Shown in pieces: positions 102 to 27,486 of a stretch of DNA of 51,793 nt (positions are counted from its first letter, which is position 1; each line of letters begins with the position of its first letter). Source of the DNA: a virus; the IMG/VR virus record IMGVR_UViG_3300013131_003349, positions 1-51,793 of that record. One strand, written 5' to 3'. The notes beneath the pieces are model-generated. The model was not told the origin of the DNA. It did not search any database and saw nothing but the letters and a program-made list of their open reading frames with translations. A program made the translations under genes and the position numbers.

Positions 102-839
102 TTATAGGTATTGCTCAAGTAACTTAATTCCTGGAAGTGCTGCTAATGCCTCTTCAGCTTGACGAACCAATTGTCGTGCACGCTCATTTGTGATACCCAT
201 CTCCTCACCAATTTGCTCCATGCTCTGTGCATACTCAACACCTAAGCCATAATTGCGTCGCAATGCCTCTTCTTGCTTAGGCTTCAATTGTGCCAATGCT
301 CTATCAATGTCAAACTTCAGGTCCGCGCGGTCTCTGCTGCTGCGCACCTCATCGGCTGCCAAGTATCGATCTGCATATGTCTCTTTGTTCTCATCATCAC
401 CCACCGGAGTGGAAATGCTCTTTGTGGAGTACTCCTCAGTAGCCGTACGGTGTGATGGGATCCTTACTGTGCGGGATAAATCATTGAGGGCCTTCTGCAA
501 CTCGGCACGGATATACCATACTGCAAACGTAATGAATTTAACATTCTTGCTGGTGTCAAAACGATCCACAGCCTCAAACAATCCAATGTTGGCAAATGCT
601 ATGAGGTCCTCCATCTCCAAGCCCATGCCCTGGTACTGTCGTGCCACTTGCACTGCAAACCTCAGGTTGCTTTCTATTATGGTGTTGCGTGCCTTAAAGG
701 AGCCTGCCTGTGCATCAAGGATTAACTGCGTCTCTGCCTCCCGGCTTATGACCTGAGCCTTCTTTATCTCGGCTACGTAACGCTTTGTGGATTCGGCGCC
801 TACTATTGCACCATTTGTAACATTGATTCTTCTTTTCAT
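102..839 (-). CDS. Sigma-70 family RNA polymerase sigma factor (phage-encoded)
   Basis: This 245-residue protein has the core of a group 1/2 sigma-70 factor: a short region 1.2-like N terminus (TKRYVAEIKKAQVISREAE), region 2 at about residues 45-115 including SNLRFAVQVARQY, the DLIAFANIGLFEAVDRFD helix and FITFAVWYIRAELQKAL, and a C-terminal region 4 helix-turn-helix (about 185-235; EEMGITNERARQLVRQAEEAL). It would bind host core RNA polymerase and redirect it to phage promoters. Region 3 is short compared with bacterial RpoD, which is usual for phage or alternative factors. It is the last complete gene of the leftmost operon, and no class A promoter is visible directly before it, so read-through from the gene ending at 925 is likely. 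The target promoter is unknown; the ATATTTAT motif of this window is a candidate by inference. Confidence 0.93.
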   Translation of the reverse strand: MKRRINVTNGAIVGAESTKRYVAEIKKAQVISREAETQLILDAQAGSFKARNTIIESNLRFAVQVARQYQGMGLEMEDLIAFANIGLFEAVDRFDTSKNVKFITFAVWYIRAELQKALNDLSRTVRIPSHRTATEEYSTKSISTPVGDDENKETYADRYLAADEVRSSRDRADLKFDIDRALAQLKPKQEEALRRNYGLGVEYAQSMEQIGEEMGITNERARQLVRQAEEALAALPGIKLLEQYL

Positions 840-8237: not shown

Positions 8238-10556
8238 TCATTTGATTGTTTTGATTACTTCACCATTTTCGAGTACTTCTATAACAATGCCGGTAGCATT
8301 TTCATCAATAGTTTGTCCTAGCAGATTAGTTCGTCGAGCCACAATGCGTATACTGGTTTTATTGTTGATTACAATTGGATCAAAAGTTTCGTAAGCACCA
8401 TCAGTGTCATACTGAGTTAGTCTGTAGTAATTGTATACAGGTTTAACGGCATTGTCTGTAACATCGTAATGAAGCTCTTGAGTTGAATTACCTGCTGCAG
8501 CAACCGTTCCCAACTCGGACCATGTAATTCCATTTTCACTTTTTTCTACTACAAAATGTGTCGTGTTGTGTTCCGTAGCAGTTGCCCAATAAATAAAGTT
8601 GCTTTTGTCTACTGGCTTACCACTGAAGTAAAGCAACTCAACGGGTAAAGCTCCCATTGTTATTATCAGGTACTGCTGGGTTTGAGTATTGCATCCAGAC
8701 GCATTGGATACTGTTACACGAACTGCTCCATTTGTTGTTGTTTGTGGCCATGTAAACGTTGTTGTAGGTGAGTTTGAGTTTGGTATGTTAACCCATAGTG
8801 GTGCAGAAACAGTTTGAGTATAAGCCCATACATAACTTGCTCCTATAATCGGAGTGATTGAGTATGTTTCAGCAGTACCAGCAATGATATTGTTGTTGCC
8901 TGATACAGTGCTTACTAGAGGTAAACTAGGATTAACGTTTACTGTTGTTGATGTTGATGCATTGCAACCGTTTGATGATACGGAAACTGTATAAGATTGT
9001 GTTGTTGATGGTGAAGCGTATGGACTTGGTGCCGATGGATTAGTTAATCCTGTCGATGGTGTCCAACTATATGTTGGTGTTGATCCAGCAGCAAGCCCCG
9101 AAACGGTGGTAACAAGTTGAGTTGATGATCCATTACAAATAGTGTTTGTTACCGGAGTTACACTAATACTTGGTGTTGGGTTTACTGTAATAGTTGTAAA
9201 TACACAATTTGTACTAAATAAACTCCCGTTAAAATTTCTTGCGTAATACGTTGTTGTTGATGTAGGAGTAACACTAATCGAATTACCAGTTGCAATCTGA
9301 CCTATACCACATCCACTAGTAAACCAATAAACAGTTCCATTTGCTCCATTTGCTGTTAACGTTGTTGATTGGCCAACACAAATTGTGTTAGAAGTTGCTG
9401 ATATAGAAGTTGGGTTTGGTGGTGGAGGATTGGTGCATGTTAACCCCAATTGAAACGCACTACTACTACTATAACCATGCACGAGGATATAATAATTTAA
9501 TCCAGCACTAGAAGCCCAACTCAGGGAGGCTGAGGTACCACCACAAACTGGACCATTATCATCGTTACCACCCGCGCACGAGAGGGAAGAACAATTTGGT
9601 CCGCTAAAAACAGAAATCTTGCTATCCCACGCGGTGCCGCAAAGCGAGGCTGACATGTTTTGTCCATTCCCTGCAACCACATACCACACTCCGGGTTGTG
9701 TTTGAGAAACCCCGCAACTTCCAGCTTCTCCAGTACCGCTATTTGTAGCATTTACAGTCGTGCCACTCAAGGTTTGGCCACAAGAAATTCCAGTAGCATT
9801 ACAGACCAAATCGTTAGCGGGTGCGACGGCTGCAGCGCAAGACAAACACTGTATCGTCGACGTTCCACAAGAAGAAGCGGTACCGCAACAATTATTCGTG
9901 TTATAATGAATATAATAAGTTCCTGAAACAGGTGCTGTCCAAGTTAAAGGTGTTGCGCCGGTTGCTACAACTGTTCCGCCCGGGGAGGTGTGACGCACGG
10001 TAATCCAACCACCTAAATTATAGGTTGATCGATACTGCCTTCCGGCAACTACCGCCGAAACGGTGTTATACTCCGACTGATACGTACAAGAGCTAATCGT
10101 AAGGATTCCAGGCGCAGCAGGAGCGATCGCTGACCCCCAAGCAAAACTATTGGTGCAATTTCCCACGCAACCACCTCCACCGCCACCACCACACTGCGCA
10201 GTTCCGATAGATCCGCCTGAAGTTGGACTACCAGGTTGCATGGTTTGTAGAGCAATAACCGTTGCGCCAGTGCTACTCGTTACACGTATTTTACACTCAT
10301 TTGACCAACTACCGGTCGTAGAACGCCATACTCGAATTGTTTGTCCAGCCGCAGCATTAAAATTAACTGTCACAGGTCCGTATCCACTGTTAAAGGTTAC
10401 ATTAGATACTACAATGACTCCGTTTACTGAAACCGATGCACGGTTCCCATTCCAACCATCACCATATGTATCGGTCATGTGAAGTGTGTGAGTGCAGGAT
10501 TGAGAAAATGAGATTGCTGATAGCAACAATGTAAATGCAAGTAATAGTTTCTTCAT
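8238..10556 (-). CDS. Large secreted multi-domain protein with a T9SS type A-like C terminus
   Basis: This 772-residue protein begins with a clear Sec signal peptide (MKKLLLAFTLLLSAISFSQS). The first 110 mature residues hold a TDTYGDGWNG-type module. Further on come a Cys-rich region, a pre-peptidase-like beta domain (about 245-375; PGVWYVVAGNGQ, YYILVHGYSSSSAFQLGLTC) and two Ig/PKD-like segments with Cys at conserved places. The end carries LPVELLYFSGKPV and a segment (FVVEKSENGITWSELG) typical just before T9SS type A sorting domains, and it closes with NLLGQTIDENATGIVIEVLE plus a Lys-containing tail. In Bacteroidota such proteins cross the outer membrane by T9SS and stay on the surface. No catalytic motif is seen, so adhesion or surface modification is most likely. 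The terminal domain is short and divergent. AAAAAGGAT precedes the ATG. Confidence 0.85.
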   Translation of the reverse strand: MKKLLLAFTLLLSAISFSQSCTHTLHMTDTYGDGWNGNRASVSVNGVIVVSNVTFNSGYGPVTVNFNAAAGQTIRVWRSTTGSWSNECKIRVTSSTGATVIALQTMQPGSPTSGGSIGTAQCGGGGGGGCVGNCTNSFAWGSAIAPAAPGILTISSCTYQSEYNTVSAVVAGRQYRSTYNLGGWITVRHTSPGGTVVATGATPLTWTAPVSGTYYIHYNTNNCCGTASSCGTSTIQCLSCAAAVAPANDLVCNATGISCGQTLSGTTVNATNSGTGEAGSCGVSQTQPGVWYVVAGNGQNMSASLCGTAWDSKISVFSGPNCSSLSCAGGNDDNGPVCGGTSASLSWASSAGLNYYILVHGYSSSSAFQLGLTCTNPPPPNPTSISATSNTICVGQSTTLTANGANGTVYWFTSGCGIGQIATGNSISVTPTSTTTYYARNFNGSLFSTNCVFTTITVNPTPSISVTPVTNTICNGSSTQLVTTVSGLAAGSTPTYSWTPSTGLTNPSAPSPYASPSTTQSYTVSVSSNGCNASTSTTVNVNPSLPLVSTVSGNNNIIAGTAETYSITPIIGASYVWAYTQTVSAPLWVNIPNSNSPTTTFTWPQTTTNGAVRVTVSNASGCNTQTQQYLIITMGALPVELLYFSGKPVDKSNFIYWATATEHNTTHFVVEKSENGITWSELGTVAAAGNSTQELHYDVTDNAVKPVYNYYRLTQYDTDGAYETFDPIVINNKTSIRIVARRTNLLGQTIDENATGIVIEVLENGEVIKTIK

Positions 10557-10633
10557 ACGGTATCCTTTTTACGATACTCACTTGAAGAATCTTTTTAGAA
10601 ACCCCCATCTACCATGGGCCGGTCGAGTCAATT

Positions 10634-10641
10634 ATAAATAT
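10634..10641 (-). promoter_or_regulatory. ATATTTAT motif (class B) upstream of the type A-like secreted protein
   Basis: The motif sits 78 bp before the ATG at 10556 and touches the stop codon of the preceding gene. A short imperfect hairpin (CCCAT/ATGGG) lies between it and the start. A long leader, or an unrelated match, cannot be excluded. Confidence 0.35.
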
Positions 10642-13079
10642 CAACGAATCAAAATTATATGACCGGTAACAGTATATTTTGCATCTGTATTTTTATCACC
10701 AAACCAAATCTTATATGTATATACGCCATCTGCACATAATGCATTGTTATATGTACCATCCCAAGCTGCTTCTGCCCAATAAGATTCCCATACCATTTCT
10801 CCCCAACGATTGAATACCGTTAAATGAAATTCTGCAGGATCAAACCCTGAGGTAAACACCGGGCGCCATGTTTGATTGTGTTGGTTACCATCTGGCGTAA
10901 ATGTATTTGGTACATAATACAACATCTGTGGACAACGAGATACCGTTACCGTTGTGGTTGTAGGTTCTGAAACACATCCATCGACTGTATGCGTTGCTTG
11001 TATCACATACATTCCGGCATTGTTCCATGATACTGTTAGTGTCGGAGATTGTGTTACGTTGCCTAACAACGTCCATTCTGTTATGCCTGGTGCAGTAACT
11101 GCGGCTGCATATGATGATACGACTGAATCGCCTTCGCAAATTTGTATGAATTCATCATTTGGAGTAATTGCTAATACTTCAGGCTGTGGATATACTGTTA
11201 CGGTTGTGTAAGATGTAAATGCACAATTGCTCTGTGTATATGTATATGATATGCTATTTGTTCCAATTGCATTGGTTGGGTCTAACGTATTACCAGTAAC
11301 ACCCAATCCAGCAAACACGCCACCCGCAGGAATTGCTGTGAGTGTTGCATTTGCATCATATACGCAGAATGGACCAATGGTATCGATTGTTGGAACAATA
11401 TTTAATATGAACACATTAACCGTAACAGGTGCACTTAGGCAACCAAACTGATTTGCTGCTACTACTTGAACGGCTCCGCCTACTAATCCTGCGTTTAATG
11501 CACTACAATCTACCGTGATGGCACTTGTTCCTTGCCCCGATGTAATTGTTCCTGGTGTTGTCCACGCGTATGTATAACCTGGTTGCGTTGGCACCGAATA
11601 TGTTGCAGCAGTCTCTCCTAGGCATACGGTATCAAGTGATGCAATAGGACCAGTAATTACCGGAGGCGGATCAATCAACGTGATGGTGTTAGATGAAGTA
11701 CATCCATTAGCATCAGTTACCACTACAGCATATGTACCTTGACACAACGTTGTAGCTGTTTGAGTGATTTGTCCATTGCTCCAAGCATAAGTATACGGAG
11801 CTACGCCATCAACCGGATTAGCAGTTGCAGTGCCATTACAATCTCCAACACATACGGGATTGGTTGAAGTTATCAGCGGATCTTGTAGTGGGGCTGGATC
11901 GATCAATGTAGCAGATGTAGTTATGTTGCAACCATTGATATCGGAAACGGTTACTGTATATGTTCCTGCACAAAGACCTGTTAATGAATTTGTTGTTTGA
12001 CCCGTTGTCCATGTATACGTATAAGGTGCAGTACCATTAGTTGGAGTAACAACTAAAGTACCATCGCACGCAGCATTACATAATGGATCTGTTATAACAA
12101 AGTTAGGTTGATTGAGTACTGGAGGACCTGGTACTACTTGCACCGTATCTGGACCTAAGCCTACTCCTGCATTACATGTTGACCATCCTGCATTGCAAGC
12201 CGGATACTCTAGATGACAAGTATAATAAGCTCCACCGGCTGGAGGTGTTACAGTGATCTGATTAACGTTTTGTGCAATAGGCACTGGGTTTCCTACTTGA
12301 TACCACACTAAGGTTGGTAGCACAGCAGCACCGTTAGGAGTGTATCTTCTAGCATCTTGCTGAGCAGTCCATTGTGTTGAGTTTCTACCGAGTACAGTGA
12401 CCGCCTGTGTTCCCGCTGCGTTATGGATTCCTTGCACTGCAGTGCCTCCCGCCCATTGCGGGCAGTTTGGTTTAACGGCAATATGGTTTTCAATGTAATT
12501 GGTTGATTCATAAATTACTATATGAAATGTACCCTGTGTGCTAGTACACAAAAACATAGGCATGTTAATCCAACTTACAACCAACTTTCTGCAAGGAGCA
12601 GTACCCTGAACTTGATATCTAATTTGACCACCAACACCAGGATGCCAATCCTGCCAAGGGCCCATAATGCAATTCTTTGGTACCGCAGCATTCATCGAAG
12701 GTATTGCTATTGATGCAAATGTTGTTGGCTGCACTCCCGCACCTAATGATATCCAACCATTGGATCCTATTCGAAACTGGGTATAGGTTTGTCCATAAAA
12801 GCAAAACGTAAAACCAATGTTAAACGTACCCGATTGTGAATCATCTGACAGCTGTACCAATGTACCCGTATTGGTCTGCATAACATATGGTATTGTTGAA
12901 ACCGCATATGAAGTGGTTTGATTGGGATTGCTTCCTGCTCCGCATTGAGATAGGTCCGCTGTCAATGTAGTTGAGTTTACTCCGCAAGGAAGAATTTGAT
13001 CTGGCCCTAATGCGGGACAATACTGAGAATAAGATATGGTGCTAACTAGCATCCAAATAAGTGCGTATACGTGCTTCAT
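10641..13079 (-). CDS. Large secreted protein with SprB-type repeats and T9SS type B C-terminal domain
   Basis: This 812-residue protein starts with a signal peptide (MKHVYALIWMLVSTISYSQY). Residues about 60-290 form a beta-rich domain (FNIGFTFCFYGQTYTQFRIG) like those in gliding-motility-type surface proteins. Two adjacent SprB-like repeats follow (DPLCNAACDGTLVV...GTAPYTYTWTTGQ and NPVCVGDCNGTATA...GVAPYTYAWSNGQ), then Ig-like segments. The last 85 residues (FTPDGNQHNQTWRP, FNRWGEMVWESYWAEAAWDG, GVYTYKIWF) match the gliding-motility-associated C-terminal domain used as T9SS type B sorting signal. Such proteins are exported by T9SS and displayed on the cell surface. Finding one inside a phage operon is unusual. 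It sits between tRNA-Glu and the type A-like protein. Confidence 0.9.
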   Translation of the reverse strand: MKHVYALIWMLVSTISYSQYCPALGPDQILPCGVNSTTLTADLSQCGAGSNPNQTTSYAVSTIPYVMQTNTGTLVQLSDDSQSGTFNIGFTFCFYGQTYTQFRIGSNGWISLGAGVQPTTFASIAIPSMNAAVPKNCIMGPWQDWHPGVGGQIRYQVQGTAPCRKLVVSWINMPMFLCTSTQGTFHIVIYESTNYIENHIAVKPNCPQWAGGTAVQGIHNAAGTQAVTVLGRNSTQWTAQQDARRYTPNGAAVLPTLVWYQVGNPVPIAQNVNQITVTPPAGGAYYTCHLEYPACNAGWSTCNAGVGLGPDTVQVVPGPPVLNQPNFVITDPLCNAACDGTLVVTPTNGTAPYTYTWTTGQTTNSLTGLCAGTYTVTVSDINGCNITTSATLIDPAPLQDPLITSTNPVCVGDCNGTATANPVDGVAPYTYAWSNGQITQTATTLCQGTYAVVVTDANGCTSSNTITLIDPPPVITGPIASLDTVCLGETAATYSVPTQPGYTYAWTTPGTITSGQGTSAITVDCSALNAGLVGGAVQVVAANQFGCLSAPVTVNVFILNIVPTIDTIGPFCVYDANATLTAIPAGGVFAGLGVTGNTLDPTNAIGTNSISYTYTQSNCAFTSYTTVTVYPQPEVLAITPNDEFIQICEGDSVVSSYAAAVTAPGITEWTLLGNVTQSPTLTVSWNNAGMYVIQATHTVDGCVSEPTTTTVTVSRCPQMLYYVPNTFTPDGNQHNQTWRPVFTSGFDPAEFHLTVFNRWGEMVWESYWAEAAWDGTYNNALCADGVYTYKIWFGDKNTDAKYTVTGHIILIR

Positions 13080-13093
13080 AACTGGCCTTTAAT

Positions 13094-13101
13094 ATAAATA
13101 T
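13094..13101 (-). promoter_or_regulatory. ATATTTAT motif (class B) for the T9SS type B-like protein
   Basis: The motif lies 14 bp before the ATG at 13079, with an AAAGG ribosome-binding-like run between. A terminator for the upstream tRNA unit sits just behind it, so this gene needs its own promoter, which supports the motif. Confidence 0.55.
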
Positions 13102-13108
13102 GTACAGT

Positions 13109-13135
13109 AAAAAACCCAAGCAGTCTTACTTGGGT
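13109..13135 (-). terminator. Rho-independent terminator downstream of tRNA-Glu
   Basis: On the minus strand ACCCAAG and CTTGGGT form a 7 bp stem around an 8-base loop and are followed by a T run. It lies 9 bp after the tRNA 3' end. Confidence 0.8.
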
Positions 13136-13143
13136 GCTTTTTG

Positions 13144-13215
13144 TAGTCGGTACGGGATTCGAACCCGTGTGACAAGAATGAAAATCTTGTATCCTAACCC
13201 CTAGATGAACCGACC
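13144..13215 (-). tRNA. tRNA-Glu (anticodon TTC)
   Basis: The minus strand folds as a standard tRNA. The acceptor stem pairs GGTCGGT with ACCGACT (first pair G-T), the anticodon stem is CAAGA/TCTTG with loop TTTTCAT, and the T arm is CGGGTTCGAATCCCG. The anticodon is TTC, reading GAA and GAG. CCA is not encoded. The D-arm matches tRNA-Glu of other bacteria (ATCTAGGGG). It is co-transcribed with the 56-residue gene upstream and ends at a terminator. Confidence 0.95.
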
Positions 13216-13219
13216 ATCA

Positions 13220-13390
13220 TTAAAAATCTCCTAATCGCAAATGGAATTGATATGCCGCCTGATCTTCATAATAAGTCATATCAGCTAATCGCATTACGCA
13301 TTCATCATGCGTACCCGTTAATAGGACTTCACCTTGAGCATTTACAAGTTGAAATACGTCCTTCTTTGAATTTACACAAACAATATCCAT
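13220..13390 (-). CDS. Hypothetical small protein, 56 aa
   Basis: A short frame with a class A promoter directly upstream encodes MDIVCVNSKKDVFQLVNAQG and ends YEDQAAYQFHLRLGDF. The fold looks alpha/beta (VFQLVNAQGEVLLTGTHDEC is strand-turn-strand), similar in look to small phage proteins that modify host enzymes. Function unknown. The stop lies 4 bp before the tRNA gene. Confidence 0.6.
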   Translation of the reverse strand: MDIVCVNSKKDVFQLVNAQGEVLLTGTHDECVMRLADMTYYEDQAAYQFHLRLGDF

Positions 13391-13403
13391 ATACTTTTTT
13401 TTT

Positions 13404-13434
13404 ATAAATTATGAAATTGTTTTAAACATTCCAA
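13404..13434 (-). promoter_or_regulatory. Class A promoter for the 56-residue gene and tRNA-Glu
   Basis: TTGGA (13430-13434) and TAATTTAT (13404-13411) are separated by a 20 bp spacer; TTTCA precedes the -10 box as at the VWA and MoxR promoters. Confidence 0.65.
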
Positions 13435-13439
13435 CCGGA

Positions 13440-13757
13440 TTAGATAAATTGTAGTAAAAAATAACTTAATTTGTATCCTGCAAATGCTCCCAATGCTGAT
13501 GGTATAGGAAATACAATCAATTTACCTAACTCAGTAACATACTTGGGACGATTCACAATTCTACCCATGAATGCATAATATGCTAAATAACCAAGCAATA
13601 CGGCTAAGTCCGTACGGGTCGCAATAAACACTACTAGTATTGCACCCAGAAAGCCAAAGGTAAAATTGTCTCTAACGCCTTCCCATATCTCGCGAGTGCT
13701 TGCATTTTTATATTCAACATAGATACGTTTATAACGTGATGGTTTTTTAGTTTTCAT
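13440..13757 (-). CDS. Membrane protein, 105 aa
   Basis: A basic N terminus (MKTKKPSRYKRIYVEYKN) precedes three hydrophobic segments (about residues 32-45, 50-64 and 82-100; FGFLGAILVVFIATRTDLAV, IPSALGAFAGYKLSYFLL). It is probably a polytopic inner-membrane protein. It overlaps the GNAT gene by 4 bp. Family unknown. Confidence 0.6.
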   Translation of the reverse strand: MKTKKPSRYKRIYVEYKNASTREIWEGVRDNFTFGFLGAILVVFIATRTDLAVLLGYLAYYAFMGRIVNRPKYVTELGKLIVFPIPSALGAFAGYKLSYFLLQFI

Positions 13758-14089
13758 TCAATTGTTTTTTCTACATAAGTACATGTTTCTCCAGCATCAA
13801 ATCCTTTTTCTAGGAGTAATGGCAATGATGCTGGTTTGCACCAAGCATATACTTTGTATCCTTTGTAGCGTTGTTGTGCATAGTCCCAACGCATCTCCCA
13901 TAGTGTTCTGTATATTCCTTTGCGACGATACTCTTCATGTACCCAAGCATCAAGGAATTTGATTTTGCGATCATCTTCCCGCTCCATGTAGATGTGTCCT
14001 ACTATCTCTCCGTTGATCATAGCAATCCAAGTTTCAAGTCGTTGTGCATTGCTTTTGAGATGTACTATTTTAATATCGTCTGTTGTCAT
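13754..14089 (-). CDS. GNAT-family N-acetyltransferase
   Basis: The ATG at 14089 is chosen (4 bp overlap with the upstream gene). The open frame continues to 14170 only because it reads through that gene. The 111-residue protein has the GNAT layout: strand pair (TWIAMINGEIVGHIYMERED), a central strand (IKFLDAWVHEEYRRKGIYRT, with the R-x-x-G-x-x acetyl-CoA pyrophosphate loop) and a C-terminal YKVYAWCKPASLPLLLEKGF. Substrate unknown; a phage or host protein, polyamine or antibiotic is possible. Confidence 0.8.
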   Translation of the reverse strand: MTTDDIKIVHLKSNAQRLETWIAMINGEIVGHIYMEREDDRKIKFLDAWVHEEYRRKGIYRTLWEMRWDYAQQRYKGYKVYAWCKPASLPLLLEKGFDAGETCTYVEKTIE

Positions 14090-14346
14090 AAATTTCCTAA
14101 ATAAACTGTTAATGCACCTATCGTATAACCTACAGCAGATGCTAACGCCATATGAAATCGTTCTGGCCATGTTTTTGATTCAACCATATAACCTACAAAA
14201 GGAAGGCTTAGGAATGGTCCAATGAATGCCCAAAACATCATTGTGATGCTACGATCTGCTACCGTTGCAATATACATAGTTGATGCTGTTTCTAGAATAA
14301 ACGCAGCAAATGCTATGATAAAATATTTTTTTAAACTTTTATCCAT
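14086..14346 (-). CDS. Small polytopic membrane protein, 86 aa
   Basis: Three hydrophobic segments are visible (FIIAFAAFILETASTMYIAT, MMFWAFIGPFLSLPFVGYMV and ALASAVGYTIGALTVYL). No charged or catalytic residues fall within them except one Glu in the first. The start overlaps the DUF2452-like gene by 16 bp. Function unknown. Confidence 0.6.
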   Translation of the reverse strand: MDKSLKKYFIIAFAAFILETASTMYIATVADRSITMMFWAFIGPFLSLPFVGYMVESKTWPERFHMALASAVGYTIGALTVYLGNL

Positions 14347-14708
14347 TTATTATCGTAATTGTATTTAAAACTTGCTATATAATTTTGTGTCCATCTATTT
14401 GACTCAATTAAGGATAAAAACAATTCGCCGTTGTCTCTACTATACAAATGGTATATTTCGTTGATTACCGGTTCAAAGCTAAACTTTGACTTATACACAA
14501 GATCATTCCATTTATATTCGTCGATCAGTTTTTGGTATTCTTGTTTAAGTTCATCAAACTTAGATAAAAATTGCTTATTGACATTAGCAACGCGAGTTTG
14601 CCTCCAATGCTTAATATCGTCTACTATGATAGCAGGTGCACCAACATTGCTGGCATATGGTAGCAATCCTGGATTATCGGCAACGTTGTCTGATTTTTTC
14701 ATAACCAT
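14331..14708 (-). CDS. DUF2452-like conserved phage protein
   Basis: The N-terminal NPGLLPYASNVGAPAIIVDD phrase resembles the conserved opening of DUF2452-type proteins found in T4-like and marine phages. It is followed by a helical middle (FDELKQEYQKLIDEYKWND) and a conserved-looking C-terminal segment (FEPVINEIYHLYSRDNGELF). Length is 125 residues. The family has no established biochemical function. It is coupled to the zinc-ribbon gene, whose stop coincides with its first base. Confidence 0.65.
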   Translation of the reverse strand: MVMKKSDNVADNPGLLPYASNVGAPAIIVDDIKHWRQTRVANVNKQFLSKFDELKQEYQKLIDEYKWNDLVYKSKFSFEPVINEIYHLYSRDNGELFLSLIESNRWTQNYIASFKYNYDNKWIKV

Positions 14709-15094
14709 TAGATACCAATAACAACTTCCTCTGTAATGATATCGCCATCAATCAATCTACTTATCTGTGCAAATTCAACATGATCTTGATATTCTAGTTT
14801 CATTTCTGCTCGAAACCGATCTGCATCTTCTAGTGTTTCTAATGAACCACACACCGTTGCAACTTCACCCGCCATTTTATAACGGTATGCACCATATGGA
14901 TTTTTTAGTTCAGAAATTTCCCAATCTGATTTTGTTAGCTCTGTAAGCTTTTTATTTCTATTTTTAATAGTTGCTGAATAATGATATCCGCAGTTATTGC
15001 AGTTAACGTATTCTTCGCCTGTTTTGTAATAAAAGTCACTATATGCTTCTGTTTTGCAATTAGGACACGCAATGTAATCTATAACTGATCCCAT
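14708..15094 (-). CDS. Zinc-ribbon protein, 128 aa
   Basis: An N-terminal four-cysteine motif (IACPNCKTEAYSDF...YVNCNNCGYHY) forms a classical zinc ribbon. The following 90 residues include an alpha/beta part (LETLEDADRFRAEMKLEY) with no known fold. Zinc ribbons of this kind bind nucleic acid or RNA polymerase. The gene lies between thyA and the DUF2452-like gene in one operon. Confidence 0.7.
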   Translation of the reverse strand: MGSVIDYIACPNCKTEAYSDFYYKTGEEYVNCNNCGYHYSATIKNRNKKLTELTKSDWEISELKNPYGAYRYKMAGEVATVCGSLETLEDADRFRAEMKLEYQDHVEFAQISRLIDGDIITEEVVIGI

Positions 15095-15106
15095 AACTTA
15101 TATTTT

Positions 15107-16204
15107 TTAATTTGATAAAGGTGCTTTAATTGTTGGGTGTGATTGATAGTTGCTTAACTGAATGTCTTCTTCTAACAAACATTTACAGAAGTTGACATCC
15201 TTAAATTCATTAAACACGGCCGTTGCATCTAATGGACCTTCTCCACATTCGCCACTCTCCGTTGGCCACCATTCCGTATTAATGTTAAGTTTCGGTAGTG
15301 GATACAGCTCTCGATGCATTTGTTCTTTAGCTTGCTCTATGTGATTCAAATACAAATGGGCATCGCCGATATTGCCAATCAACTCATCAGGTACCATACC
15401 AACTGCTTTAGCAATGATTTCAAGCAGCAGTCCGTAACTAGCTATATTGAATGGCAAACCTAAGAACATGTCTGCAGAACGTTGATTCCACATTAGAGAG
15501 ATTGCTCTGGTTGGGGCATTAAAATTTTCAAGAACTTCAGCAACATTACCTTCCCATCCTAATCTATCAAAAAACTTAGGCATTTGTTGACTTCTATTTT
15601 TGATGACCCAATTTCTACGTTCACCACTACATAACTCTCTCGTATAAACTTGAAATCCATAGTGACAAGGTGGTAGTGTCATTTGGTCTAATTCACCTAC
15701 ATTCCAAGCTGAGACCATTAGTCGTCTTGAATCCGGATTTGTTTTAAGGTCGTTGATTAGGTTTTGTATTTGGTCTATTTCACCATTCCAATTACGCCAA
15801 CCAGCCCCATACACAGGTCCGAGGTCGCCCCACTTCTTAGCAAACTCATCATTAGTTCTGATTTTGTTGATGAATTCTTCCATGGTATCTGGCCAATCAC
15901 CTTTGTATTCATTTGTTTTACTGATGTAATTCTTATAAGCATCTCCATCCCAAATATGACAATCATTATCAACAAGGAACTTAATGTTGGTATCACCGCG
16001 GAGGAACCACAATAACTCAGTTACAATTTGTTTCCACGCCATCTTCTTAGTTGTAAGTAAAGGAAATCCTTCACTCATATCATGGCGAATCTGTCTTCCA
16101 AACACAGAACGTGTTTTGCCATTTCTGCCTTCCTTCAATTCTCCATTCTTAAACACATCGTATAGTAGTTTAAGATAATCGTGTTCAATATTATTCATTT
16201 CCAT
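15107..16204 (-). CDS. thyA: Thymidylate synthase
   Basis: This 365-residue protein is a folate-dependent thymidylate synthase that converts dUMP to dTMP. Visible landmarks are VFGRQIRHDMSEGFPLLTTK near the N terminus, FLRGDTNIKFL, the catalytic loop LPPCHYGFQVY (nucleophile Cys), QRSADMFLGLPFNIASYG and GDAHLYLNHIEQAKEQ near the C terminus. It is longer than bacterial ThyA (about 264-316 residues) because of inserts, such as ELCSGERRNWVIKNRSQQMP after the catalytic Cys and an extended C terminus. Such insertions are common in phage enzymes. An alternative start lies two codons downstream. It overlaps the small gene upstream by 14 bp. Confidence 0.96.
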   Translation of the reverse strand: MEMNNIEHDYLKLLYDVFKNGELKEGRNGKTRSVFGRQIRHDMSEGFPLLTTKKMAWKQIVTELLWFLRGDTNIKFLVDNDCHIWDGDAYKNYISKTNEYKGDWPDTMEEFINKIRTNDEFAKKWGDLGPVYGAGWRNWNGEIDQIQNLINDLKTNPDSRRLMVSAWNVGELDQMTLPPCHYGFQVYTRELCSGERRNWVIKNRSQQMPKFFDRLGWEGNVAEVLENFNAPTRAISLMWNQRSADMFLGLPFNIASYGLLLEIIAKAVGMVPDELIGNIGDAHLYLNHIEQAKEQMHRELYPLPKLNINTEWWPTESGECGEGPLDATAVFNEFKDVNFCKCLLEEDIQLSNYQSHPTIKAPLSN

Positions 16205-16382
16205 ATTTTTTTCTCAAGTATTCTGCCCATGCAGATTGCTTACGTCCATTAACAAAGAACCAACCCAAATTCATTTCAAACCATTTGTTAATTTCATATG
16301 CCCAATAACATACAGCGTGCCAACACCACCATAACACGGATATGGTCCACGCACTAATTAACAGTATCAATAGCAGATTCAT
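16191..16382 (-). CDS. Small membrane protein, 63 aa
   Basis: An N-terminal hydrophobic helix (LLLILLISAWTISVLWWCWH) leads into an amphipathic, Trp-rich region and a basic C-terminal tail (WAEYLRKKYGNE). It overlaps both thyA (14 bp) and the upstream gene (29 bp). Function unknown. Confidence 0.6.
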   Translation of the reverse strand: MNLLLILLISAWTISVLWWCWHAVCYWAYEINKWFEMNLGWFFVNGRKQSAWAEYLRKKYGNE

Positions 16383-16596
16383 CTTCTATAATTTTTGCAT
16401 CTTGTACGGTTTCACAAAATATGAAATGGGTTTCGGATCGTAAAACATGATCTGCACCAACCCATTCCATATACAACTTAACATATTCCATATCAGGTTC
16501 ATCTCCTATCTTACGAGCGAACCCTGATACAGGTTTTTTCTTGATAACAATGTACATTGCATCACCATGGCGATATAATGATTTGATCAAATTCAT
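16354..16596 (-). CDS. Hypothetical protein, 80 aa
   Basis: A small soluble protein starting MNLIKSLYRHGDAMYIVIKK. It alternates beta-like segments (EYVKLYMEWVGADHVL) and ends in an acidic tail. It starts 3 bp after the groEL stop, so it probably belongs to the same transcript. No family recognised. Confidence 0.6.
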   Translation of the reverse strand: MNLIKSLYRHGDAMYIVIKKKPVSGFARKIGDEPDMEYVKLYMEWVGADHVLRSETHFIFCETVQDAKIIEDESAIDTVN

Positions 16597-16599
16597 ATA

Positions 16600-18240
<1,641 letters not shown>

Positions 18241-18245
18241 TTAAT

Positions 18246-18253
18246 ATAAATAT
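18246..18253 (-). promoter_or_regulatory. ATATTTAT motif (class B) upstream of groEL
   Basis: The motif lies 36 bp before the groEL ATG, directly beside the stop codon of the upstream homing-endonuclease gene, with the same orientation as groEL. Confidence 0.5.
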
Positions 18254-18814
18254 TTATCTATCGTGTTTCGTTTTAGATTTTCCTAACAATGATTGTGATA
18301 TTTTCATTTTAGTTTCATCGCTACGAAGCTTCCCTGTATTTTTTAATGCTCTATTGCGAACTACATCTTCACTTTGTTTTCTACCTTTTAACTTTAACGA
18401 AGTATTAGGTCGTTTACACCGCATTTTTTGTTTGGTTTCTTCTGAATGTATAAATCCAGATAACCCTTTATTCCACGCAGGTCGTCCTTTTTTTAAATTC
18501 GACATATGTTGTCTTAACTCCTCTCCAGGATTAGTTAATCCTTCACCCCCATTAGTCATATTAACTAATATTCCCGTACCTAAATCTTTACGACCATATA
18601 ATAAAATAAATTCTTGTTCTTTTTTACAAGCGCCTTCCCACGTTAAATCATCTAATATAATTTCTATTCGATATTGTACTTTATTTACAACATGAGTCCA
18701 ATGTTTATTTCTACTTTTATTTGAATTAGCCCGTTCATATAATTCATCAGATCCTATACCAATATAAAATGGTTTATTCGTGTCTAACCTAATATGTCGA
18801 TATACATATGCCAT
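18254..18814 (-). CDS. GIY-YIG homing endonuclease with NUMOD-like C terminus
   Basis: The N-terminal domain shows a GIY-YIG core: VYRHIRLDTNKPFYIGIGSD, then RNKHWTHVV and a catalytic-like Glu in LTWEGACKKEQEFILLYGR. The C-terminal half has NUMOD3-type repeats (HSEETKQKMRCKRPN, RSDETKMKISQSLLGKS) that bind DNA in homing enzymes. The 186-residue protein is a free-standing mobile endonuclease inserted between groEL and the VWA gene. It has a small spacer on both sides and no intron that I can see. The base composition is AT-richer than its neighbours. Confidence 0.88.
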   Translation of the reverse strand: MAYVYRHIRLDTNKPFYIGIGSDELYERANSNKSRNKHWTHVVNKVQYRIEIILDDLTWEGACKKEQEFILLYGRKDLGTGILVNMTNGGEGLTNPGEELRQHMSNLKKGRPAWNKGLSGFIHSEETKQKMRCKRPNTSLKLKGRKQSEDVVRNRALKNTGKLRSDETKMKISQSLLGKSKTKHDR

Positions 18815-18832
18815 ATATTAATATATATAGAA

Positions 18833-20899
18833 TCATTTAGCAATTTCCAAGAACTTGGAATTCAATGTTCTTGCAACTTCTTGCATGTTCTTGGGATCGA
18901 TAAATTTAGCATCAAGTCCGTACATGGTATGGAATGGAGTCTTATCATAACTGTATCCGCCGCCGGTGATGAAATAACTAATAACATTGATACCTAATTC
19001 ACGGAATCCATTAACAACTCTGCGAGTAAATTGAACGCCATCATATCGATGAGCAACACCTGATACATCGGTTGGATATCCATCTGAATAATTGATAAAG
19101 ATGCATTCATCGCCTTTTGCATCGCGCTTAATGTCTTGCTCAATGCTCTTGAATGCTAACCCTTCTGGAGTACACCCAAACGTATCTAGATATTTGAAAT
19201 AGTTACGAATCTTACTCATTTTATCATGTGCCGAATCATATGCATAAACCGTAATTGCTTTTTCTTTACCACCCGTCGACGATTCGGTACCACGCAATGA
19301 AATTTGTACACGGATGCCAGTTGTCATAGAAGCAGCTTGTGCAATTGCAACGGCTGACATAATGGCATTTCGAAACTTTTCACCTGCCATCGATCCGGAT
19401 GCATCAATTGAAATGTGAATAAAATAATTTTTGAACTGATCCGTTACAATGCGATGAAACACGTTAGCATTATCATAACCCAATTGGGAAATCAATCTGC
19501 GATCAATCTTACCAGCTTGCAAACGAGTGGTCTTCAAGGTACGATCCGAATTGCGAAGCTGCAATTTGCGCCCTAATGCCTTGCCTAAAATAATACCTTG
19601 CGTAATGTTTTGATCATTTTCAATGAGCGATTTAACGCGATATTGATTAGATGCTACATCGGCCGCATAATTTAACGTGCCTGCAACATAATCATTTGCT
19701 CTACTAGCAAATAAATGAGGCATTGCTGCGATGATACCCGGAGTCAATTTTTTAATAACAATTGTATCAACAAAATCGGAAGTACCTGATTCATTTGTTG
19801 CTACTTGACGAACCTCAGTACCCGATTCGCGGATAGCATTAACGATGCTTGCTTGCGTTTTATTCAGTCTACCTGTTTTCTTGTTGTCACCCTTAAGGAA
19901 ATCTCGTTGCTTTTCAATTGCCTTTTCTAATTTCTTAAGGTCATTTGCTGACAATGAAGATCCACTATCAACGCCATTTTCGGTTGTATCATCCGAAGCT
20001 TCGCCCTCACCATCTTCATCACCATCATCGCCCTCGCCATCGCCTTGACCCGTACCACCGTTGTCTTGCTGAGGGTCTCCGTATTGCGATTGCTCTTCAG
20101 CTGAATCGGTTTCTGCTTCTGCTTCTGCTACAGCATCCTTAACAAGCTTGTATACTTTGCATGCAACTAACAATGCATCTTCGGTAGATTGCAATCTTTG
20201 AATGTTTCGAAGATCAATCACATTCCAAATTTCTTGCAATGCTGCAAGTGCTTTCAAATTGCGGTTAGGATTAGTTAGATTGATGATATGAAACATATAA
20301 TCCTCCCATGTCTCTTGACACTTCTCATTAGCTACCAATGCCTTATCGATAACTTTGTCATTGAAATACTTATCATACATTGCCTCATAATACATACGAT
20401 AACCTGGAGCACTAGTATAGATATAAAAGTCAATGCGTCGATCTTCAATCCAATTCAATAAATCTTTGATGATCACAAAGTCTCGGTGTTGCATTGTCAT
20501 GTCCGGATCAAGTCCATTCATTCGAACAATTTGTGCCATTGGCGAATTTGCCAAGATGCCACCACCTTTAAACATGTTAAAGTCAGTCAATGCAATATGC
20601 GACCCTTCATGCAATGCTAATCCAACAGCTGGATCAAAATTCTTATCATCAAGTTTGGTGCCAATCACAACGGATTCGCCATCGGTATAGCTTGCATCTG
20701 CGGACTGAAATACTACGGGAATTGATTTGCCCGTTACAATGTTAACGAAATTAGCAATAGCCCGTTGCGTTGCAGCCAACTTGGTATAGTCAATACCATC
20801 ACCTCGTTTGAAGTCTGTATCAAAATCATCACTTAACCAAAAGCTAGATGCTGACCTTGAATAATATCGTTTGCCATCAAATTTACCTAAAATACTCAT
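18833..20899 (-). CDS. CobT-like von Willebrand A-domain protein (partner of MoxR)
   Basis: The 688-residue protein has an N-terminal metalloprotease-like region with LALHEGSHIALTDF (about residues 135-150, HExxH-like with Gly) and an acidic, Gly/Asp/Glu-rich linker (about 265-310). The C-terminal VWA domain (about 490-688) has a MIDAS motif DASGSMAGEKF and the later FINYSDGYPTDV. CobT-type VWA proteins pair with MoxR/CobS AAA+ ATPases, and one lies directly upstream here. The pair probably remodels or inserts a metal or cofactor into a target complex. It has its own class A promoter just behind the MoxR terminator. Confidence 0.85.
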   Translation of the reverse strand: MSILGKFDGKRYYSRSASSFWLSDDFDTDFKRGDGIDYTKLAATQRAIANFVNIVTGKSIPVVFQSADASYTDGESVVIGTKLDDKNFDPAVGLALHEGSHIALTDFNMFKGGGILANSPMAQIVRMNGLDPDMTMQHRDFVIIKDLLNWIEDRRIDFYIYTSAPGYRMYYEAMYDKYFNDKVIDKALVANEKCQETWEDYMFHIINLTNPNRNLKALAALQEIWNVIDLRNIQRLQSTEDALLVACKVYKLVKDAVAEAEAETDSAEEQSQYGDPQQDNGGTGQGDGEGDDGDEDGEGEASDDTTENGVDSGSSLSANDLKKLEKAIEKQRDFLKGDNKKTGRLNKTQASIVNAIRESGTEVRQVATNESGTSDFVDTIVIKKLTPGIIAAMPHLFASRANDYVAGTLNYAADVASNQYRVKSLIENDQNITQGIILGKALGRKLQLRNSDRTLKTTRLQAGKIDRRLISQLGYDNANVFHRIVTDQFKNYFIHISIDASGSMAGEKFRNAIMSAVAIAQAASMTTGIRVQISLRGTESSTGGKEKAITVYAYDSAHDKMSKIRNYFKYLDTFGCTPEGLAFKSIEQDIKRDAKGDECIFINYSDGYPTDVSGVAHRYDGVQFTRRVVNGFRELGINVISYFITGGGYSYDKTPFHTMYGLDAKFIDPKNMQEVARTLNSKFLEIAK

Positions 20900-20915
20900 A
20901 TGCTCTTTATTTTAT

Positions 20916-20946
20916 ATATAATATGAAATTACTATTCAGTTTCCAA
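20916..20946 (-). promoter_or_regulatory. Class A promoter for the VWA gene
   Basis: TTGGA (20942-20946) and TATTATAT (20916-20923) have the 20 bp spacer after TTG; the -10 region reads TTTCATATTATATA. Confidence 0.75.
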
Positions 20947-20956
20947 CCAAATACAG

Positions 20957-20982
20957 AAAAAAAGGCGACATTTCTGCCGCCT
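20957..20982 (-). terminator. Rho-independent terminator after the MoxR gene
   Basis: On the minus strand AGGCGGCA, tetraloop GAAA and TGTCGCCT form an 8 bp stem followed by a T run. It lies about 20 bp after the stop codon at 21001 and just ahead of the VWA promoter, so the two genes are separate transcripts. Confidence 0.88.
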
Positions 20983-21000
20983 CTTTTGAGCTATGAAAAA

Positions 21001-22161
21001 TTAGAATGGGTTTTCTTGGCCTTTGCCATCAACACCGGTATTGAAGATGTCCTTCATCTCGGTTGCCATATGCTTTTGGATAATTTGCTTAACAAAGGTT
21101 CTTTCAGAATCCGTACCGCCAGATGCATCAAAGAATGGAAGGATTGATACCTCAGCGGCTTCTGATAAAGAAAAGCCATCTGCCAACAATTCACATACGC
21201 GCACCGTCATACGAGTGGATACCATTGTGGTAAGTTTACCATCTTCTGATCTCCATTCTTTACGAGTTGCATCTGCAATGTCTGCTACTGCATGAATCAA
21301 ACTGCGGTTCACGGTTGGGAATCGTTTTGTCAATAAATCTTCTTCTTGGGATAGTGACAAGATATCAACTTCAATGATTTCAAATCGATCCATTAATGCT
21401 CGGTCCAATACCCGAGTGGATGTATATTCGGTACCAATGTTTGCCGTTGCAATAAATGATACGCCTGAAGCAACTCGAATGGTAGGTGAATTGATATCTT
21501 CATCCAATCGCAGATACCTTTGACCCTCATCTAATACTGTCATCAAGATGTTCCAAGCCTCGGGGTGCGCACGAGACAACTCATCCAATAGAATAACGGC
21601 ATTCTCGGTTTGAATTGCCTTGACAAATGCCGATTCATCAAACGATGTTTGACCATCAACGAAATGCGTATTACCAATCAAGGTTGCTCGAGGGTCTTGC
21701 GTTGCACCCAAGTTAAAATAATAGAAAGGTCGATTGGTTGCCACAGGAAGATCTTTTGCGGCTTGCGTCTTACCACAACCTGCAGGGCCAACCATCATGA
21801 TGTTTTTACCGCGCACTGCAGACCGAACCAAATATTTCCATTTGATGTCGGACATTTCCAATGTTGCAGGCTTAATTTTATAAGCATTCTGAATCAAACT
21901 AAGTACTACATCTTGTTCTTGTGGCATAGGTTGTGGTGTTGGTTGTGATTGTTTAATGTCTTCTAATTCAATACCGGACTTGTTCATGCGTTTGGCTCGG
22001 CCGGTTTCTTCATCAAACAACAATATCTCATCATTATCAAATGCATGTTTAATCATGATAGGACGAAACAAGTTGGTAATGTCTTTGTTTGTACCAAACT
22101 CGATAATTTGCGGATTGCCATTTACTAAGGTTGGCACACCAATAACTTTTTTGTTTTTCAT
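21001..22161 (-). CDS. MoxR-family AAA+ ATPase
   Basis: The 386-residue protein has a Walker A motif (GPAGCGKTQAAKDL, about residues 127-140), a Walker B with VILLDELSRAHPEAWNILM and the sensor region (GVSFIATANIGTEYTSTRVL, ALMDRFEIIEVD). This is the MoxR/CobS arrangement. The N-terminal 100 residues are phage-specific. MoxR ATPases act with VWA proteins as metal-insertion or protein-activation chaperones. The class A promoter upstream and the terminator downstream make it a single-gene unit. Confidence 0.9.
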   Translation of the reverse strand: MKNKKVIGVPTLVNGNPQIIEFGTNKDITNLFRPIMIKHAFDNDEILLFDEETGRAKRMNKSGIELEDIKQSQPTPQPMPQEQDVVLSLIQNAYKIKPATLEMSDIKWKYLVRSAVRGKNIMMVGPAGCGKTQAAKDLPVATNRPFYYFNLGATQDPRATLIGNTHFVDGQTSFDESAFVKAIQTENAVILLDELSRAHPEAWNILMTVLDEGQRYLRLDEDINSPTIRVASGVSFIATANIGTEYTSTRVLDRALMDRFEIIEVDILSLSQEEDLLTKRFPTVNRSLIHAVADIADATRKEWRSEDGKLTTMVSTRMTVRVCELLADGFSLSEAAEVSILPFFDASGGTDSERTFVKQIIQKHMATEMKDIFNTGVDGKGQENPF

Positions 22162-22178
22162 AACTCTTTTTATTTTCT

Positions 22179-22209
22179 ATATAATATGAAATAAAGAGTT
22201 ACATTCCAA
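22179..22209 (-). promoter_or_regulatory. Class A promoter for the MoxR gene
   Basis: TTGGA (22205-22209) and TATTATAT (22179-22186) with the 20 bp spacer; TTTCA precedes the -10 box as in the VWA promoter. Confidence 0.75.
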
Positions 22210-22210
22210 C

Positions 22211-22324
22211 CTATTCGTCTTGTTTTTTATGTTTTTTCTTGCGAGTGTAAGTTTTTTTGCTCTTCTGTATGATTGGACGAGTTGCTTGCCAAATTTCCTG
22301 CATAGTTACTTCAATCTTTTCCAT
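22211..22324 (-). CDS. Small basic protein, 37 aa
   Basis: The 38-codon frame encodes MEKIEVTMQEIWQATRPIIQ followed by a Lys/Arg-rich tail (KKTYTRKKKHKKQDE). The acidic-helical front and basic tail suggest a nucleic-acid- or protein-binding peptide. It sits in the gap between the DUF5872-like gene and the MoxR promoter. The assignment rests only on an open frame with a sensible start, so it is tentative. Confidence 0.5.
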   Translation of the reverse strand: MEKIEVTMQEIWQATRPIIQKSKKTYTRKKKHKKQDE

Positions 22325-22360
22325 GGCAAAAATATATGAAAATGTTTCGTGAAATCCAAA

Positions 22361-22723
22361 TTACCATTTTCTACAAGACCAATATCTTGCTGAGGTTCTG
22401 TCCTTGGCAGTATGACAACGGTGTCTTGCTCTAAATGAACGTCTACGTGCGGGATTGCTTTTACGTATTCGCATATTAGGGTCACCAAAGTTGACCTTTA
22501 CAACGTTGCCTTTGGCATTTTTAACGTAGACTTTGAATTTCTTAACATCGCCGCGCATTGGTTTACCCAATTGCACTTTGCGGCCCTGATATTCGGCTTC
22601 ATTGATTCCAGATTCCTTGATGGTTACATATTCTGGATTTTCATCTGCAGATTTGATTGTTTCAATTAAGCATTCAGCACAATATGCTTCTGCTACTGGT
22701 ATTTGCGATTCATGTAATGTCAT
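22361..22723 (-). CDS. DUF5872-like basic phage protein with Cys-containing C terminus
   Basis: This 120-residue protein has GKPMRGDVKKFKVYVKNAKG, VKVNFGDPNMRIRKSNPARR and SFRARHRCHTAKDRTSARYW in order, followed by SCRKW. The pattern is well known from proteins of T4-like marine phages grouped near DUF5872. The N terminus (MTLHESQIPV) carries an L-x-E site resembling the leaders discussed in the findings. The basic, Cys/His-containing end may bind nucleic acid or zinc. A structural or head-internal role is inferred. It is 3 bp from the upstream 615-residue gene. Confidence 0.7.
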   Translation of the reverse strand: MTLHESQIPVAEAYCAECLIETIKSADENPEYVTIKESGINEAEYQGRKVQLGKPMRGDVKKFKVYVKNAKGNVVKVNFGDPNMRIRKSNPARRRSFRARHRCHTAKDRTSARYWSCRKW

Positions 22724-22726
22724 ATA

Positions 22727-26928: not shown

Positions 26929-27486
26929 TTATGCAGTTAAAATGTCATATACTTTAGTTAAACTCGATACTTTAGGATATGTTGATTTTACGCCATCTAT
27001 AATAGTTTTAATATAGTTTTTAGTATTATTTTCACTCGGGGGAGCATATGTATACATGAATTGTTTTATAGTCGGCTTTTCACCTTTCACGTATTTAGGT
27101 GTCATGTTTAAATTTGTACTAGTACTTGGCATATCACCACCTGCCCATTTTTTTATTTTCATATCAATTAGTGCCTTTGCCCCTAAAACTGGCGAAGAAA
27201 ATTTAGCATATTTGCCATTAGTTTCTTGAACAACTTTTGGATCAATTGTTGTAAAACTATCTTGATACATTAAATTACCTGGATTGTTATTTCGATATGC
27301 TCTAGAACCTTTACCTGCATTTGCAGTTGCTAACCAACCTTCTTGTGTTCCTATTATTTTAGCTAAAATGTACTCCGCAGATGTTTTTGCATATCCGGTT
27401 TGATCTAATACAGATGTTAAACTAGTTTTGTCATATGTTACTTCATTGTTATCAAATTCAACAAGCAATGATTTTAATCGCATCAT
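26929..27486 (-). CDS. Peptidoglycan-hydrolase-like protein with capsid-targeting-like leader
   Basis: The protein starts MMRLKSLLVEFDNNEVTYDK, with an LVE cleavage-like site. Residues about 45-150 contain SAEYILAKIIGTQEGWLA, then AYRNNNPGNLMYQ and FSSPVLGAKALIDMKIKKW. The NNPGN loop and the later ALIDM helix resemble phage-virion muramidases or glucosaminidases of the NPGN type. A virion-associated lysin that helps DNA entry is plausible. It begins at the 3' end of the DUF5872-like basic gene (ATGA overlap). Confidence 0.7.
   Translation of the reverse strand: MMRLKSLLVEFDNNEVTYDKTSLTSVLDQTGYAKTSAEYILAKIIGTQEGWLATANAGKGSRAYRNNNPGNLMYQDSFTTIDPKVVQETNGKYAKFSSPVLGAKALIDMKIKKWAGGDMPSTSTNLNMTPKYVKGEKPTIKQFMYTYAPPSENNTKNYIKTIIDGVKSTYPKVSSLTKVYDILTA

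Follow-up and report, generated by a model that had tools for sequence, protein, structure and literature searches.

A conserved adhesin-like protein with predicted type IX secretion signals in large T4-like phages

The window analyzed here, a stretch of 51,793 nucleotides (nt) from the IMG/VR virus record IMGVR_UViG_3300013131_003349, encodes on its minus strand two adjacent large proteins, P0002 (812 amino acids) and P0001 (772 amino acids). We consider it reasonably likely that P0002 is a late-made, stalked, adhesin-like surface protein exported through the type IX secretion system (T9SS) of the host, which was taken once from Bacteroidota and has been kept by large T4-like phages. The lengths and coordinates of both proteins in an initial annotation, made from the sequence alone, were correct (Table 1).

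The C-terminus of P0002 scored 41 bits with TIGR04131 (curated cut-off 35), the model of type B sorting domains, and 46.2 bits with CHU_C (cut-off 27). Two stretches of the protein matched the SprB repeat family PF13573 (59.7 bits; cut-off 28), in agreement with the SprB-like repeats noted initially, and the Pfam family PKD_6 was also found. Both P0002 and P0001 begin, as had been proposed, with a signal peptide, which is followed by Gln at position +1. A Sec-type n/h/c pattern—Lys or Arg within residues 1–6, then a hydrophobic run, and Gln at +1—was recognized by our own script (not SignalP) in the N-termini of all 77 distinct phage copies of P0002 (77/77); the pattern would accept Glu as well, and the set excludes one truncated copy and all partial copies. 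Bacteroidota favor Gln directly after the signal peptide cleavage site.

The stalk of P0002, rich in immunoglobulin (Ig)-like domains, matched GhpA of Aureispira by profile (E 3.4e-75), and GhpA was also the top match in Foldseek. For the head (residues 19–325), no known fold was evident among the matches listed, the lists being filled by Ig domains. The SprB repeats and the GhpA-like stalk support a predicted architecture of the adhesin type. GhpA (PDB 9flp and relatives), which we take to be the protein of the T9SS-secreted grappling hooks, resembles P0002 in Ig-like repeats that match the stalk by both profile and fold; unlike P0002, it is a cellular protein of 5898 residues, and its best-scoring profile stretch does not extend beyond the stalk. 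The C-terminal domain of SprB is of type B. SprB and the gliding adhesins of Flavobacterium share this domain and the SprB repeats with P0002, but P0002 is phage-encoded and only 812 amino acids long; an assignment to the SprB gliding adhesins proper was rejected, because the repeats are present in a protein that is not very large. In the part of the source available, grappling hooks are described as T9SS-secreted and SprB as large (PMC11205867).

Homologues in other phages, which the initial annotation had suggested looking for, were found in 161 stretches of viral contigs with the single protein as a query and in 194 with an alignment; 80 loci were kept from each scan. TIGR04131 exceeded its cut-off in 36 of 46 records scanned: 34 reached via P0002 loci, the window included, and two from huge phages (LR745206.1 and LR756502.1). 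All ten records without such a score had been reached via P0001, and none of 14 control genomes had a type B domain. The type A model TIGR04183 matched 15 of 43 records (11 over the cut-off) and 2 of 14 controls (1 over the cut-off), and two of its weak matches, one in G010 and one in G016, fall on the type B domain. The two huge phages carry several T9SS domains each: four type B (three over the cut-off) and three type A (two over the cut-off) in LR745206.1, and three type B and one type A, all over the cut-off, in LR756502.1; the frames bearing them reach up to 1675 amino acids. Among plasmids, 12 records matched P0002, none over more than 80% of its length, and the eight matches listed are confined to parts of residues 286–650.

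Among 58 distinct full-length phage copies, conservation was highest in the region following the signal peptide and in the head, and lowest in the stalk and the signal peptide. The ratio of nonsynonymous to synonymous divergence (dN/dS) was 0.12–0.16 overall and 0.09–0.30 in the C-terminal domain in five pairs, and 0.04–0.12 in the head in four of these pairs, the fifth being not computable; all of these values are rough, because dS was near or above 1. The head has homologues among cellular Bacteroidota proteins of unassigned role. A phylogeny against host proteins had likewise been suggested at the outset; in a tree of the head, built by a quick search and without bootstrap, a branch with SH-aLRT support of 99 separated 70 phage rows from 59 rows of bacterial metagenome-assembled genomes (MAGs). 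The MAG rows beside the phage copies were all Bacteroidota except one labelled Pseudomonadota. This exception, a contig of a MAG labelled Candidatus Competibacteraceae (JACSSC010000022.1), has a P0002-like gene that falls among Bacteroidota rows and is perhaps mis-binned. A single acquisition of P0002 from Bacteroidota is probably the simplest reading of this tree.

Other genes of the window encode a phage sigma factor, an exonuclease, glycosyltransferases, methyltransferases, and an endolysin-like protein. The initial annotation ascribed P0001 and P0002 to the phage, an assembly check for a host–phage chimera being proposed, and the replicate contigs and a near-complete relative speak against such a chimera. 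A contig from another metagenome assembly equals window positions 644–23079 at 99.96%, and one from a third assembly equals positions 10382–23079 at 99.97%, covering P0002 and only the start of P0001. The near-complete relative, G003 (159,586 bases, with a direct terminal repeat of 64 bases), aligns to 68% of the window; its P0002, the gene of which crosses the record ends, is 97% identical over residues 176–812. Chimerism or contamination is unlikely because the replicate assemblies and this relative agree. That the genes are hitchhiking host genes or products of a chimeric assembly, with no function for the phage, is extremely improbable: the sequence is host-like and its G+C content (0.43–0.44) lies above that of the flanks (about 0.35), but the replicate assemblies, the many phage copies on one branch, purifying selection, and the phage-type promoter motif described below contradict it.

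Genes for a T4-like major capsid protein, portal, terminase, tail sheath, tail tube, baseplate hub, DNA polymerase, and UvsX were encoded in G003, which is, by its gene content, a T4-like phage. The T4-type capsid protein (Gp23) exceeded the cut-off in 17 of the 46 records scanned. Flavobacterium phage immuto was the nearest named isolate both for the G003 capsid (56% identity) and for the sheath of L037, a relative in which P0002 lies in the tail operon (50% identity). Bacteroidota hosts are indicated, because immuto is the nearest isolate and the T9SS signals and the head tree point the same way. The capsid of Microcystis phage Mel-JY01 (PP395634.1) is 53% identical to that of G003, which is unexpected for a cyanobacterial host.

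Motifs before both genes had been noted initially and were confirmed: in the window, ATATTTAT lies 14 nt upstream of the start codon of P0002 and 77 nt upstream of that of P0001, and in G003 the corresponding distances are 14 and 75 nt. ATATTTATA occurs 37 times in G003, compared with a total of 12.8 in letter shuffles; 29 of the 37 precede a gene start of matching strand by at most 100 nt. In the same genome, ATATTTAT was found 25–28 nt before the tail tube, sheath, and baseplate hub genes, 19 nt before the portal gene, 19–28 nt before those of a head–tail adaptor and a virion protein, 35 nt before GroEL, and 83 nt before ribonucleotide reductase; it was absent within 40 nt of the genes for DNA polymerase, DnaB, exonuclease, UvsX, SbcCD, and an endonuclease. 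This survey is an illustration and not a blind test, because its twenty genes were chosen with the motif list in view. TATTTAT was present within 60 nt upstream in 26 of 42 P0002 loci outside tail operons (dinucleotide shuffles: 2.3, at most 8), and its reverse complement in 6 of these loci (3.4 expected). The T4-type late promoter has the orientation TATAAATA; this candidate was rejected, since only 2 of 46 such sites in G003 lie at most 100 nt upstream of a gene start, versus 31 of 46 for TATTTATA. P0002 is probably transcribed late, with the virion genes, and the sigma factor of the window is a candidate reader of the late motif. A tRNA lies beside P0002, as annotated initially; it is a tRNA-Glu, and a terminator-like hairpin parts it from the P0002 motif. 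The term operon, used for P0001 and P0002, is imprecise, given the hairpin before P0002 and a motif for each gene.

We examined the gene context of P0002 in 98 loci (5 truncated upstream; L084, L091, and L111 repeating other contigs; L001 being the window; some near-identical). In 37 of them P0002 comes after the tail tube gene, inside the tail operon; the offset, for which the last sense codon is the starting point here and below, is 77–79 nt in 30 of these loci. Where the contig permits, P0002 is followed at 22 nt by a gene for a 123-amino-acid protein and then by the baseplate hub gene. In G003 and in cultured immuto the tube gene adjoins the hub gene with no gene between them, which fits an insertion of P0002 together with the 123-amino-acid protein, loss elsewhere being possible. 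The 37 loci belong to one lineage, their tubes diverging by at most 0.27 and their P0002 heads by up to 0.34, and the context of P0002 changes at least 7 times on the tree (counted by starred branches). The higher divergence of the heads and the repeated changes of context suggest exchange of P0002 between phages. Distances of capsids and P0002 heads in 12 records were correlated (r 0.53; 0 of 5000 permutations as high), while head divergence stayed at or below 0.34 and capsid divergence reached 0.82. Strictly vertical inheritance with the capsid is not supported by these values, a pattern that constraint on the head could mimic.

Several findings weigh against an exported, generally kept surface protein. 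No isolate with a P0002 gene was found, and tblastn relatives were present in 2 of 50,697 phage records, both from uncultured huge phages. P0002 is not universal: it matched 4 of 29 records with a related capsid (drawn from 80 loci) and 4 of the 6 of at least 100 kb, so that a universal core gene was rejected. One of these four, the 145-kb record G062, yields no more than fragments from the later half, which contain a stop in frame, and may be a copy that has decayed or is decaying. Of the 42 P0002 copies outside tail operons, 16 have no late motif upstream, and in G003 the terminase gene and a baseplate wedge gene have no ATATTTAT within 100 nt; these two may share the promoter of a neighbor. 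The predicted fold of P0002 residues 718–812 aligns with the T9SS protein PorZ (5m11; Z 8.6, 84 residues, root-mean-square deviation (rmsd) 2.9), but better with a protease domain from a streptococcus (5xxz; Z 9.6, 93 residues, rmsd 2.4). Since the protease domain outscores PorZ and the fold is a common beta-sandwich, it adds nothing specific to T9SS and was rejected as proof of it. The type B domain assigned to P0002 in the initial annotation was upheld by TIGR04131, whereas the type A domain assigned to P0001 was not: P0001 had no match with TIGR04183 and no NCBIfam family at E ≤ 1. Finally, PHROGs ties part of the P0002 stalk to a Hoc-like head decoration protein (E 3.7e-8).

The latter match could mean that P0002 is a part of the virion, a tail or decoration protein with host-derived ends by chance. 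The fixed place between tail tube and baseplate hub in the 37 loci agrees with this, as does a match to Hoc among the VIA-align structure matches (Z 9.6 over 219 residues, rmsd 9.2). We nevertheless regard a virion part as quite unlikely: the signal peptide with its Gln site, present in every N-terminus examined, would take the protein out of the cytoplasm, where virions assemble, and in G003 and immuto no gene occupies the place between tube and hub. Hoc is a capsid-binding, cytoplasmic virion protein without a signal peptide. A Hoc-like decoration protein was rejected, since P0002 has a signal peptide and its PHROG match is confined to the Ig-like part.

For the preferred reading, a surface protein exported by the host, we propose the following route. 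P0002 would be transcribed late in infection, alongside the virion genes; Sec would export it, the signal peptide being cut before Gln19; the host T9SS would then recognize the type B C-terminal domain, with host partners of the PorP/SprF type if needed; and the protein would be displayed on the infected cell, or shed from it, with the conserved head outward on the Ig stalk, where it may act in adhesion. A PorP/SprF partner is an accompanying, not a defining, feature of type B cargo. PorP/SprF, the one T9SS part looked for, was found in none of 43 phage records, many being fragments, while four of four cellular genomes were positive. A phage-encoded partner of this kind was rejected on these grounds, and the host would supply any PorP/SprF partner because none was found in the phage records. 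The failure to find a phage PorP/SprF, together with the type B domain and the SprB repeats, also agrees with interference, in which surplus type B cargo would tie up the T9SS or carriers of the SprF type, so that gliding or the display of competing surface molecules stops. This is unlikely: the head is the part most conserved by dN/dS, which would be unexpected if only the tail of the protein mattered.

There is a lesser but appreciable chance that displayed P0002 masks or sequesters the phage receptor, so that infected cells or debris take up no further virions. The late-type promoter is later than classical early exclusion would presumably need, and the conserved head resembles the cellular proteins of unassigned role mentioned above. 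However, receptors of Flavobacterium phages have been proposed, in the text available, to lie within the gliding machinery (PMC7345892), and P0002 has SprB repeats; the same role was proposed for cargo of Cryophage, as far as the available part of that paper goes (PMC7468147). In phage T5 the exclusion protein Llp is encoded beside the receptor-binding tail gene pb5, which may be compared with P0002 of the tail operon; Llp is likewise an envelope protein encoded beside a tail gene, but differs as a small periplasmic lipoprotein with another export route (PMC9586334, available in part; Llp was set beside P0002 by description). The late motif and the position in the tail operon would fit a role as infection closes no worse than they fit early exclusion. 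Our preference as to the benefit of display by the host T9SS, and only a weak one, is that the surface is altered when infection ends, so that the infected cell or what remains of it adheres to neighbors or has its receptors covered.

It is possible, and we advance it tentatively, that large Bacteroidota phages across lineages (capsids only about 20–35% identical) share a surface kit made late in infection, in which a stalked adhesin uses the T9SS of the host and the dying cell would show adhesive or masking molecules chosen by the phage; the adhesin gene would be traded between phages, replaced by recombination in the tail operon of one lineage, and sometimes paired with swappable cargo such as P0001. 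If so, a phage family would rebuild the cell exterior late in infection with the secretion machine of its host. To our knowledge, late rebuilding of the cell surface has been little considered for Bacteroidota phages. The question could be approached with cultured immuto, the nearest named isolate by capsid and sheath.

The initial interpretation was supported as regards phage-encoded proteins with signal peptides, T9SS tags, and an adhesin-like makeup. Its view that T9SS cargo is not a standard phage feature should be amended, as such cargo is already in print and the P0002 family is widespread in viral contigs. Cryophage carries T9SS cargo genes (Bellas et al. 2020, PMC7468147), and an ORF of crAss-BACON cluster 2 near phage head genes has a T9SS sorting domain (PMC6949934), both according to the available parts of these papers. 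The Cryophage proteins are like those described here in their T9SS sorting domains and, as with P0001, in their variability between near-identical phages. They differ in kind, being all of type A, namely an endoglucanase, a glycoside hydrolase, and a PA14 protein (available part of PMC7468147), while P0002 is a conserved type B protein with SprB repeats, phage copies on one branch, a late-type motif, and a tail-operon position in one lineage. The crAss-BACON protein differs in its BACON domains and its gut phages, and the SprB/CHU_C family was not seen in the part of that paper available (PMC6949934). In BFVD, some phage entries bear the names 'Gliding motility-associated, C-terminal domain' and 'SprB repeat', so that single members of the family are already in databases. 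We failed to find a description of a conserved, tail-linked type B phage family of this kind in the open-access literature searched.

P0001 appears to be another exported protein, more variable than P0002 and with a promoter motif to itself. Ig_7 was its sole Pfam family above the cut-off. Among seven related proteins, one passed TIGR04183 (L090, 29.7 bits; cut-off 23), one fell below (L094, 20.7 bits), and five gave no match. The tail of P0001 resembles a shortened type A domain, and a similar short tail ends two proteins of one cellular genome. The beta domain before this tail is common: the P0001 alignment matched 121 of 149 sampled genomes of the class of G083 (E ≤ 1e-10), and many of the matches listed fall on that domain. 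P0001 was not filed as type A because it lacks a TIGR04183 match itself, only one of the seven relatives exceeds the cut-off, and the beta domain is common. The gene was found in 30 loci; the N-terminal module of the protein is joined to several C-terminal parts, and in L003 another N-terminus precedes the C-terminal module. The G003 counterpart has 651 amino acids and lacks part of the middle. The structure prediction of P0001 was poor (pLDDT 67).

Table 1. Features of the P0002–P0001 region and related elements in window coordinates
Feature	Position	Strand	Basis or remark
P0002, predicted exported T9SS type B protein, 812 amino acids, coding sequence with stop	10641..13079	-	
P0002 signal peptide, residues 1–18, predicted cleavage before Gln19	13026..13079	-	Gln at +1 in 77/77 phage N-termini
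P0002 conserved N-terminal head, residues 19–325	12105..13025	-	top conservation; homologues in Bacteroidota genomes
P0002 Ig-like stalk, residues 326–722: two SprB repeats, PKD_6, more Ig-like domains	10914..12104	-	Pfam and GhpA matches
P0002 T9SS type B (CHU_C) C-terminal sorting domain, residues 723–812	10644..10913	-	TIGR04131, CHU_C
P0001, predicted exported Ig-rich protein, 772 amino acids, coding sequence with stop	8238..10556	-	
P0001 signal peptide, residues 1–18, Gln at +1	10503..10556	-	sequence
P0001 N-terminal module, residues 19–382	9411..10502	-	joined to differing C-terminal parts in other phages
P0001 Ig_7-like region, residues 383–632	8661..9410	-	Pfam
P0001 C-terminal module, residues 633–772: beta domain before a short tail like a sorting domain	8241..8660	-	no TIGR04183 match
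Late-type promoter motif of P0002, ATATTTATA in the direction of transcription	13093..13101	-	
Late-type promoter motif of P0001, overlapping the P0002 stop codon	10633..10641	-	
Terminator-like hairpin and T run between tRNA-Glu and P0002	13109..13134	-	read by eye from the sequence
tRNA-Glu (ttc), neighbor of P0002	13143..13215	-	
Phage RNA polymerase sigma factor	102..839	-	phrog_351, E 6.7e-48

Other proteins with secretion signals were present in the related phages. The genome of immuto (NC_055915.1) had no P0002 match. It encodes, at positions 28–2920 of locus L334, the adjacent proteins gp013 (C-type lectin), gp014, and gp015 (cohesin-like), which have Gln-type signal peptides by eye; gp015 also carries a type A T9SS domain (46.5 bits; cut-off 23). 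Four further small proteins with a Gln-type signal peptide were encoded in G003 (93671–94051, 127021–127434, 128374–128793, and 129696–130259; loci L318–L320), whereas 6 of 4770 internal control stretches passed the pattern. The extra proteins of G003 suggest a larger predicted secretome of the phage.

A start resembling M-x-x-L-x-x-L-L-x-E was found in 14 of 185 G003 proteins versus 70 of 3500 internal stretches, which is a weak signal; examples are encoded at 14467–15246, 61342–62039, and 107621–108163 of G003 and at 26929–27884 of the window. Such starts presumably recall the capsid-targeting peptides of T4. A GroEL-like phage chaperonin is encoded at window positions 16600–18210; its relative in G003 matches phrog_5725 (E 8e-178), with the late-type motif 35 nt upstream. 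Two genes at 18833–22161 of the window share an upstream element like TTTCATATTATATA, which is unlike the late motif and possibly represents another promoter class.

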